From positions 1 through 61,794 of the forward strand of contig JALEMG010000027.1 in assembly GCA_022768375.1 (NCBI GenBank): a DNA stretch of 61,794 nt, read 5' to 3'. A model generated the notes under the pieces. That model was given only the letters and a program-made list of their open reading frames with translations. It had not been told where the DNA came from and ran no database searches. Below, in pieces: positions 8,708 through 48,265 of the stretch. The position numbers and the translations under genes were made by a program. The stretch comes from Lentisphaeria bacterium. GTDB taxonomy: Bacteria; Verrucomicrobiota; Lentisphaeria; Victivallales; Victivallaceae. How positions within the stretch are numbered: position 1 is the stretch's first letter; every line of letters begins with the position of its first letter.

Positions 8708-9559
8708 ATGAAATACATCGGCTCGCATGTAAGCATCGCCGGCGGGGTGGAAAACGCCCCGCTCAACGCCCGGAGCATCGGCGCGTCGGGCTTCGGCATG
8801 TTCACCAAGAATCAGCGCCAGTGGAGCGCACCGCCGCTGACGCCGGAATCCGTCGCCGCATTCAAGGACAACTGCCGGAAATGCGGCTATGCTCCGGAGA
8901 TGATCCTCCCCCATGACACCTACCTCATCAACCTCGGCCAGCCCGACCCGGAGAAGCGCGCCGGGAGCATCCGGGCCTTCACCGCCGAATTGGAACGGTG
9001 CCGCGCGCTGGGGCTGACCATGCTCAATTTTCACCCCGGCAGTCATCTGCGTCTGGTCTCCGAGGAGGAAGACTGCGCCATCATCGCCGCTTCCGTGCGG
9101 GAGGCGCTGCTCACGGTGCCCGATGTTCGCGCCGTATTCGAGAACACCGCCGGACAGGGCAGCAACATGGGGTACACCTTCGAGCAGTTGGCCCGGATGC
9201 TGGAACGGGTGGATCTGCCGGAGCGCACCGGCGTCTGCATCGACACCTGCCACGCCTTCGCCGCCGGGTACGATCTGGCTTCGGAGGAGGGGTTCGAGCG
9301 CTGTTTCGCGGAATTCGACCGGCTGCTGGGCCGGGAAAACCTCCGGGCCATGCACCTCAACGACAGCAAAGGCGAACGCGGCGGCAAACTGGACCGCCAC
9401 GCCCCGCTGGGCGACGGAACGCTGGGATGGAGCCCCTTCGAAAGGATCGCCTCCTCCGACCGCTTCGACGGCATCCCGCTGATTCTGGAGACACCGGACG
9501 AGAGCCGCTGGCCCGCCGAAATCGCCCACTTACTTCTTTTCTCGCGGGAAAAGAAGTAA
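8708..9559 (+). CDS. nfo: Endonuclease IV (AP endonuclease), C-terminus supplied by a repeat
   Basis: This 283-aa Zn-dependent AP endonuclease cleaves 5' of abasic sites in base-excision repair. Family signatures are the N-terminal GSHVSIAGG, NFHPGS, FENTAGQGSNMG, CIDTCHAFAAGYD and MHLNDSKGERGGKLDRH. The GGGGG box just before ATG 8708 is the ribosome-binding site. The last residues (LLLFSREKK) are not family sequence. They are encoded by the left arm of hairpin module A of a dispersed repeat, which also provides the TAA stop. The native end was therefore probably replaced when the repeat inserted. The catalytic core appears complete. Confidence 0.92.
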   Translation: MKYIGSHVSIAGGVENAPLNARSIGASGFGMFTKNQRQWSAPPLTPESVAAFKDNCRKCGYAPEMILPHDTYLINLGQPDPEKRAGSIRAFTAELERCRALGLTMLNFHPGSHLRLVSEEEDCAIIAASVREALLTVPDVRAVFENTAGQGSNMGYTFEQLARMLERVDLPERTGVCIDTCHAFAAGYDLASEEGFERCFAEFDRLLGRENLRAMHLNDSKGERGGKLDRHAPLGDGTLGWSPFERIASSDRFDGIPLILETPDESRWPAEIAHLLLFSREKK

Positions 9560-9740
9560 GACAAGAAAAGGCGACTACGTTACTTTCTTTTGACGGCAAA
9601 AGAAAGTAACCAAAGAAAACCGGACCGGTAACTGCGGAGTCGGGCCCTGCCTCGCGGGAAAAGAAGTAAGACAAGAAAAGGCAACTGCGTTACTTCCTTT
9701 TGACGGCAAAAGAAAGTAACCAAAGAAAAGCCGGACGGCG
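9529..9740 (+). repeat. Tandem copy of hairpin modules A and B (repeat R1)
   Basis: Module A (9529-9560) is a 13-bp inverted repeat, CTTACTTCTTTTC/GAAAAGAAGTAAG, around a 6-base loop. Module B (9579-9610) is GTTACTTTCTTTT/AAAAGAAAGTAAC around GACGGC. A second unit follows exactly 110 bp later: partial A from 9651, and B at 9689-9720 with one arm mismatch. Unlike the copies at 48.0 and 50.9 kb, neither terminal inverted repeat is visible. The module order A-B corresponds to the minus orientation of those copies. The remainder up to 9798 holds no gene. Confidence 0.85.
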
Positions 9741-9798
9741 GCCGGCCTCATGAGCGGGAAAATCGGGCAATGTTTCATCCGGGGCCCCGGAGTTTTCC

Positions 9799-9827
9799 TT
9801 GATAAAACACATTCCGCGCGCTATATT
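9799..9827 (+). promoter_or_regulatory. Sigma-70-type promoter of icd
   Basis: TTGATA (9799-9804), 17-bp spacer ending GC, TATATT (9822-9827), about 65 bp upstream of the icd start. Confidence 0.82.
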
Positions 9828-9892
9828 ATTGCCTCGCAGTCAATGCGGAGTTTTTCTGTTCTTCAACGGCCCCGAAAGAAAGGCATGACAAC

Positions 9893-16587: not shown

Positions 16588-16832
16588 GTCTCGATACTGG
16601 AGAAAACTGATCTTCTGTTCCGTTCGGTTAACCGCCTCCCGCTCAACCGTCCCGGAAAGGATTTCCGGGACATCGCTTCCGGCGGGAGGTGTCGGCCTTC
16701 GCCGACCTGAACGCTTCGCTGAGATTTCGCCGCATTAAGCGGCGACCAGCGTTCCGCCGCTGGATCACGTCCGGGTAGCACCCGGAGGCAGATTTCTTTT
16801 TTTATTTTTCAGTTCTCTTTTCGTACAGAGCC
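16588..16832 (+). repeat. Dispersed repeat copy R2 with alternative interior
   Basis: The left part (TCTGTTCCGTTCGGTTAACC) and the right part (CCGCTGGATCACGTCCGGGT and onward to CTTTTCGTACAGAGCC) match repeats at 44.6, 48.0 and 50.9 kb. The A/B hairpin interior is missing. Three GC-rich hairpins replace it: GTCCCGGAAA/TTTCCGGGAC near 16648-16671, GGTGTCGGCC/GCCGACCT near 16688-16707, and CGCCGCATTAAGCGGCG near 16729-16745. This region holds no gene. Confidence 0.8.
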
Positions 16833-44641: not shown

Positions 44642-44759
44642 GGCTCTGTACTGAAAGAAACCTGATTTTCCGTTCCGTGCGGTCGGCCGCCGGACCACGT
44701 CCGGGCGGCACCGGGGGGCAGATTTCTTTTATTTTTCAGGTCTCTTTAGGCAGGGAGCC
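44642..44759 (+). repeat. Dispersed repeat copy R3, interior deleted
   Basis: The left end GGCTCTGTACTGAAAGAAAC, then CCTGATTTTCCGTTCCGTGCGG, is joined directly to the right-end segment (CCACGTCCGGGCGGCACC onward to TCTCTTTAGGCAGGGAGCC). Both ends match the copies at 16.6, 48.0 and 50.9 kb, while the roughly 130-bp interior is absent. Confidence 0.75.
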
Positions 44760-48010: not shown

Positions 48011-48265
48011 GGCTATGTACGAAAAGAACCCGGAATTTCCATTCCGCGCGGTCAGCCGCCTCCCGCTTCCGCCTTCGCCGAGGCTACGGCGGACAAGCAA
48101 CCCCGCCCTTTCTTTGGTTACTTTCTTTTTGAAAGAAAGTAACGCTGTCGCCTTTTCTTGCCTTACTTCTTTTCCCGCGAGAAAAGAAGTAAGACGCTGG
48201 ATCACGTCCGGGTAGCACCCGGTGGCAGATTTCTTTTTTTTTCAGTTCTCTTTTTGTATGGAGCC
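48011..48265 (+). repeat. Dispersed repeat R4, full-length copy (255 bp)
   Basis: The ends GGCTATGTAC and GTATGGAGCC are imperfect terminal inverted repeats; the fuller left consensus is GGCTCTGTACGAAAAGAGAA. Inside are a conserved left block (CGCGGTCAGCCGCCTCCCGC), module B (48117-48143, 12-bp arms GTTACTTTCTTT), module A (48162-48193, 13-bp arms CTTACTTCTTTTC), and the right block with the hairpin CCGGGTAGCACCCGG. It ends 12 bp before the SIS-protein start. Confidence 0.85.

Follow-up and report, generated by a model that had tools for sequence, protein, structure and literature searches.

A genus-wide family of modular hairpin repeats in Lentisphaeria, probably a MITE frame with exchangeable modules that also occur alone at gene ends

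The Neisserial Correia elements and the RUP elements are short repeats with terminal inverted repeats that are moved in trans. They are named alongside BOX, the small MITE-like repeat of S. pneumoniae and S. suis that is built from two end modules and a variable number of interior modules (PMC3049150), and interchangeable interiors of the kind reported below are not described for them in the available part of that account. BOX copies are over-represented between convergent genes, their mobilisation has only been proposed, from similarity to ISSpn2, and in S. suis two end pairs, A/C and E/F, enclose the same boxB modules, to which boxD can be added (PMC3049150). The REP and BIME sequences are palindromic and lie near the 3′ ends of upstream ORFs, and the termini of GTAG REPs often provide a flanking ORF with its TAG stop codon (PMC3733652). 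Among the literature examined, and as far as the available parts of these sources go, BOX, including that of S. suis, is the closest architecture in print to the family analysed here, and REP, with its placement at ORF 3′ ends and frequent supply of stop codons, is the closest behavior. Given these BOX and REP precedents, modularity and the supply of stop codons are both known in kind; what is new is the combination of features, the host group, the precision of the junctions at tRNA ends and stop codons, and a comparison over some 30 sister species. Bacterial small interspersed repeats are generally classed either as MITEs or as REPs, and the modules of this gut bacterium behave as both, some copies lying within a frame that has the hallmarks of a transposon and others standing by themselves at the ends of genes.

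The window, by which we mean the whole stretch of 61,794 nucleotides that was analysed, is contig C59 of a 2.25 Mb genome in 64 contigs. Its features are as follows.

48011..48265, plus strand: full composite element, with LE, M1 hairpin, one A/B unit and RE
48011..48034, plus strand: left terminal inverted repeat of the 48011 copy, degenerate, GGCTATGTACGAAAAGAACCCGGA
48242..48265, plus strand: right terminal inverted repeat of the 48011 copy, degenerate, ...TTTTTGTATGGAGCC
48117..48143, no strand: B hairpin, GTTACTTTCTTT/AAAGAAAGTAAC, from sequence and fold
48162..48193, no strand: A hairpin, CTTACTTCTTTTC/GAAAAGAAGTAAG, from sequence and fold
48187..48265, plus strand: RE block, comprising the core CACGTCCGGGTAGCACCCGG, a tail rich in T and the right end
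50861..51120, minus strand: second full AB element
16588..16832, plus strand: element in which M4 (three GC hairpins) replaces M1 and AB; left end degenerate
16620..16775, plus strand: M4 block and start of the RE core; block present in 15/34 genus genomes, with covariation
44642..44759, plus strand: ends-only derivative, LE fused to RE
9529..9740, minus strand: frameless two-unit A/B array at the nfo 3′ end, the stop codon coming from the A hairpin
8708..9559, plus strand: host gene, endonuclease IV-like, presumably nfo; C-terminus ...EIAHLLLFSREKK before the stop
61036..61122, plus strand: frameless A/B unit, the A hairpin of which begins 1 nt past the CCA of a tRNA-like sequence
61127..61197, minus strand: tRNA-like sequence, 21.8 bits against a gathering score of 29, with no ARAGORN call

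The order of the full element is LE (GGCTCTGTACTNAAAGAAACCTGATTTTC...), M1 (a GC hairpin), at least one A/B unit and RE, the last of these being laid out as CTGGAYCACGTCCGGGTAGCACCCGG, a T-rich stretch and ...CTCTTTTAGTACAGAGCC. M1 and the A/B unit can be replaced by M4, joined to M4 or absent, and framed copies are ~98-400 bp long and non-coding, with interiors made of hairpins and no transposase inside. The full, swapped-interior, ends-only and hairpins-only copies of the original prediction were all located where it had placed them: the copy at 16588..16832 has three GC hairpins as its interior, its right end being good and its left end degenerate, that at 44642..44759 has ends and no interior, and A/B hairpins without ends occur as two units at 9529..9740 and as one at 61036..61122. 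The ends said to be shared by the two full copies are present, but both are imperfect (GGCTATGTAC...GTATGGAGCC at 48011 and TGTTCTGTAC...GTACAGAACC in the minus-strand copy at 50861..51120). Likewise, the four predicted interior types all exist but are only a subset of those in the genome, since this also contains an array of several A/B units with GC-rich linker sequence, AB joined to M4, M1 joined to M4 and a duplicated LE-M1. In the A/B arrays the GC-rich linker separates the inner units and the last unit has a complete A hairpin. The likeness to BOX lies in the two end modules and the variable number of interior modules and is one of architecture only. As far as the available BOX text goes, the family differs in having several unrelated interiors within one frame and in having interiors that also stand alone, at gene ends, with in-frame stops and beside tRNA ends. 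The window also contains an imperfect 21-bp tandem repeat at 52497-52601.

The repeat family is found genome-wide and far above chance. In the own genome 108 stretches match the 255-base element, GGCTSTGTACTRAA, when up to one mismatch is allowed, has 25 matches compared with 1 for its reversed control, and the hairpin TTACTTTCTTT-N2-14-AAAGAAAGTAA occurs at 37 sites (0 in the control). Elsewhere in the genus an excess of GGCTSTGTACTRAA was seen only in G016 (36 versus 0 in the control), its matches in most other genus genomes being no commoner than those of the reversed control. M4 with the RE core is present in 15/34 genus genomes with a presence that varies among them, the copies of G014, G011 and G025 being without terminal repeats, and G001 has tandem A/B arrays with a period of ~90 bp. 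The exact hairpin TTACTTTCTTT-N-AAAGAAAGTAA was found in 11/387 phylum genomes, nine from this genus and two from other genera in the window's own family, and in this phylum set the AAAGAAAGTAACC palindromes that the original prediction mentioned for unrelated bacteria were not seen outside that family. A scan of named genomes for the exact RE core, which may exclude the own genome, gave 10 stretches in five MAGs, all Lentisphaerae or Lentisphaeria and two of them from sheep colon. A plasmid search gave no match to the repeat, a phage search gave only a 26-nt match in 9 Lak phages, and two viral contigs had a match. Literature searches on MITE or palindromic repeats of Lentisphaerae or Victivallis and on MITEs with stop codons gave nothing on this family among the matches listed, and the repeat motif searched as text gave unrelated matches only.

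The frame is a genuine MITE, with terminal repeats, no internal transposase and 8-bp target duplications. Its terminal inverted repeats are GGCTCTGTACTRAA followed by CTGA at about positions 21-24 (the frame ends are also written GGCTCTGTACT). Both ends are recognisable in 11 elements of the own genome (10 detected pairs left after removal of one chance pair, and L057 added by hand) and in 11 of G016 (from 22 loci), and many copies lack one end. AT-rich 8-bp flanks with at most one mismatch were found for 5/11 elements in the own genome (perfect at L009 and L023, with one mismatch at L017, L053 and L057), where the permuted mean was 0.55, and 8-bp flanks at the same threshold for 9/11 in G016, with a 1-nt shift allowed at the right end, where it was 1.46; 0/20,000 permutations were as good in either species. 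A good duplication is absent in 6/11 of the own copies, including both full copies of the window (2 and 3 mismatches). Between the two species the interiors differ and the ends are alike. The check proposed with the original prediction, on ends and target-site duplications, yielded 8-bp duplications in two species, and common ends, separable modules and many copies are likewise supported.

We propose that these repeats probably form a genus-wide, two-layer family of composite, non-coding hairpin elements, in which a MITE frame is combined with exchangeable modules. In the first layer the frame makes 8-bp target duplications on insertion and, given these, would have been spread in trans by a DDE-type transposase, a putative enzyme absent from this assembly. 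In the second layer the A/B unit, the M4 and RE core and the M1 modules live inside or outside the frame and would be exchanged, tandem-duplicated and homogenised via recombination or template switching, as the mosaics and the species-specific loop variants suggest. The missing transposase partner, the many copies with one end missing and the own copies with no good duplication count against this two-layer reading, as do the weaker orientation bias of G016 and the run-in loci whose stop is not that of the hairpin, both described below.

A transposase encoded elsewhere with the same ends, as the original prediction expected, was looked for and not found. Searches for IS1595 and for IS6/IS240 each matched 0/34 genus genomes, and none of the 37 own-genome matches to the TIR pattern was shown to flank a transposase. 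The MAG is incomplete (94.75% complete) and breaks at repeats, with at least two IS terminating many of its contigs, and hence an autonomous copy may be unassembled. The ISL3 of the own genome at first seemed to have 33/37 end bases identical to those of the element, and was set aside because its other copies, at three contig ends, start at GCATCTTCACC with different flanks; the ISL3-like matching stretch is the remnant of a hairpin element into which ISL3 had inserted. The ISL3 of G013 has different ends, and what looked like a TIR where contig C6 terminates is the flank of a different contig-breaking IS. The ISL3-family IS (NF033550, 199.8 bits), with the end GCATCTTCACC, was itself observed at four contig ends, each adjoining an A- or T-tract (L258:1387-1430 and the ends of L308, L315 and L319, with a C10 copy inside the element remnant), and a second high-copy IS, with an end near AGGGAACCTCTATC, terminates 11 contig ends of the own genome (L058:2430-2570, L154-L167).

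The frameless modules are hairpins without terminal repeats that are placed at gene ends, as REPs are in the available account (PMC3733652), and this is what would be seen in a strict REP system, in which a Y1/HUH (RAYT-like) transposase moves hairpin modules on single-stranded DNA. Y1 transposase matches were found in 11/34 genus genomes, yet the own genome, richest in copies and 94.75% complete, gave none, and the 12 Y1 loci are without A/B, M4 or RE, one M1 hairpin lying ~1.4 kb away. Moreover, framed copies carry 8-bp duplications, which HUH transposition is not known to make. The GTAG tag of REPs, as defined in the available text, is absent, as is the CGTC form, since the CGTC of the RE core precedes a palindrome, CCGGGTAGCACCCGG, that is without A-T first stem pairs; no RAYT gene flanked by the repeats was found. 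In that account the REP unit is 20-40 nt long, compared with about 88 and 170 nt for the units here, which also differ in that the stop is located at the distal end of a hairpin of 28-32 nt and in that there is a frame with an 8-bp duplication. We therefore regard a strict REP system as quite unlikely.

The original prediction suggested nested non-autonomous elements, but the frameless A/B and M4 modules do not look like ordinary nested MITEs. No terminal repeats or duplications were seen at 12 loci inspected by eye, and the modules are associated with the 3′ ends of genes and with stop codons. Genes were called with a simple codon model and the RE- or A-proximal neighbor was taken for 82 element clusters (44 from the own genome and 38 from relatives), nine duplicate loci having been removed before neighbors were counted. 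A neighbor was called for 72 clusters, of which 64 read towards the element and 8 otherwise, and in 53 of the 64 the element overlaps the stop or is no more than 120 nt away from it. Codirectional pairs favor the RE/A side by 17:3 in the own genome (p 0.0026) and by 10:1 in relatives (p 0.012). The orientation is weaker in G016 (6 with and 3 against), and this genome accounts for all three exceptions among the relatives. These counts depend on the gene caller, since a cruder one gave 40/47 towards the element and 23:1 for codirectional pairs.

Several further repeats were observed around these loci. The stretch ACTCTGCCYCGCAGT, perhaps another module, is common to the far side of the A/B arrays L014, L024 and L033, and GGGAAAATCGGRCAATGTTTC, followed by a promoter-like TATATTA, occurs past an A/B array in the window (about 9780-9850) and at L033 (near 1800). 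The A/B array of L031 is bracketed by CTGCTTCGGC ... GCCGAAGCAG, an inverted repeat (1492-1521 and past the array), which gives the impression of an older hairpin with the array in its loop. Another hairpin repeat, GGGAGCGGGAAAAACTTCTTTTCCCGGGAAAAGAGGCTTTTCCCGCTCCC, and its relatives were seen downstream of genes in two species (L058:2308-2360 and the start of L064).

Liang et al. reportedly place REPs near stop codons. In the present family the surprising part is the precision at gene ends. Among 29 A-hairpin loci, two of which (L021 and L169-1908) sit behind other modules, a coding frame enters the hairpin in 20, and in 15/20 the terminal stop of the hairpin is used (p 0.00017 against one third), giving C-termini such as ...LLLFSREKK, YFFSREKK and LTSFRGEKK before the stop. 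In the other five of these run-in loci the stop lies 14 to 50 nt further on. Loop variants give the A hairpin a length of 28, 29 or 30 nt at different loci, and the stop stays in frame because the frame of the gene varies together with hairpin length. At L034 both arms are altered, from TTA..TAA to TCA..TGA, so that pairing and stop are both kept, and L039, which was filtered out of the 29-locus list, also has an in-frame hairpin stop. In three further loci a stop codon immediately precedes the hairpin, and another locus, L279, has TGA followed by CTTAC. The hairpin also begins 1 nt past the end of five ARAGORN-called tRNA genes, namely Gln in the own genome (L024), Arg in three species (L277, L280 and L283) and Thr (L282), and the weak tRNA match at 61127-61197 of the window has the same 1-nt spacing. 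The three Arg-tRNA cases may be one old event.

The nfo gene provides filled and empty sites for comparison. Of the 30 orthologues compared, 28 have a native end and lack an A/B unit over the following 120 nt (G033, for example, ends in ...EIAHLRNIAAGNA), and arrays occupy almost identical codon positions in two lineages, G000 (...EIAHLLLFSREKK) and G001 (...ELSLLLFARKEVRQEK). On the nfo protein tree, which uses 28 of the 30 rows with two partial rows omitted and a short G001 row, the two insertions need two changes, and 0/200 bootstrap trees need one; judged by the well-supported branches alone, both insertions may have had one origin. A second gene end, presumably that of hrpB, carries a hairpin in G001 and G014. 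The nearly identical codon position in nfo and the exact 1-nt spacing to the tRNA CCA are what might be expected if a site-specific recombinase recognised gene 3′ ends, in the manner of integrative elements at tRNA genes. The target genes are, however, many and unrelated, and apart from the start of the element itself they show no sequence in common, and no attachment-site duplication was seen by eye, and such target-specific integration is therefore very improbable. In a single case, the native nfo of G033 has TTAC where the G000 array starts with TTAC (window 9529), a possible target motif.

In the two-layer reading, the modules outside the frame behave like REP elements, lying at gene 3′ ends in one orientation, with the A hairpin either bringing in an in-frame stop or starting directly after a stop codon or a tRNA CCA end. 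They would most likely persist because such a strong hairpin does no harm, or is of use, where a transcript ends (3′ protection), and copies in the opposite orientation or upstream of genes would be lost. The precision may come from such selection or from target choice. We also consider, as a tentative and rather doubtful possibility, that the A/B unit acts as a mobile cassette for gene ends, joined with base precision directly behind a stop codon or a tRNA CCA, or inside the final codons with a new in-frame stop, with independent gains at the same ends in different lineages and with the MITE frame as a second vehicle; if this were true, C-termini and 3′ ends would have been rewritten across a genus. 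Were the gene-end precision due to target choice rather than selection, it would represent a type of insertion specificity not seen before, through which the C-termini and transcript ends of many genes are rewritten. The orthologous empty sites in some 30 sister species make the question of whether modules are placed at gene ends or survive there directly testable.

The hairpins themselves are strongly paired. In M4-RE (46 used of the 51 copies found) there are 1568 Watson-Crick, 9 G-T, 13 A-C and 9 other cells; over its 35 pairs 98.1% are Watson-Crick compared with 84.1% after shuffling, and 13/35 show at least two pair types, each in at least three copies, figures that come from a structure derived from the same alignment and from shuffles that ignore relatedness. 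The corresponding cells are 610 Watson-Crick, 12 G-T, 8 A-C and 33 other for 51 A hairpins, and 1598 Watson-Crick, 31 G-T, 31 A-C and 56 other for 143 B hairpins. None of the M4, A and B copy sets shows an excess of G-T over A-C on the element strand, and this favors maintenance as DNA palindromes, by template switching or a DNA-binding enzyme, over selection on RNA. The compensatory pairing in the M4-RE copies, the fixed position at gene ends and the hairpin and T-rich tail in which RE terminates might instead mean that M4-RE and the A/B arrays are functional 3′-UTR or small-RNA structures under selection in the transcript, with mobility secondary. Selection on RNA should, however, tolerate G-U on the transcribed strand, where no G-T excess is seen, and RNAalifold scored the reverse strand better. 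In addition, the pairing figures rest on our own alignment with shuffles blind to relatedness, no Rfam family matched at its gathering score, and presence varies among genomes, the nfo site being mostly empty. A conserved RNA is thus an unlikely explanation. At gathering scores Rfam gave only tRNAs in the window. Below that level, the first M4 hairpin (window 16618-16675) resembles the Rfam family Termite-flg, with 26.3 bits against a threshold of 40 (E 0.011).
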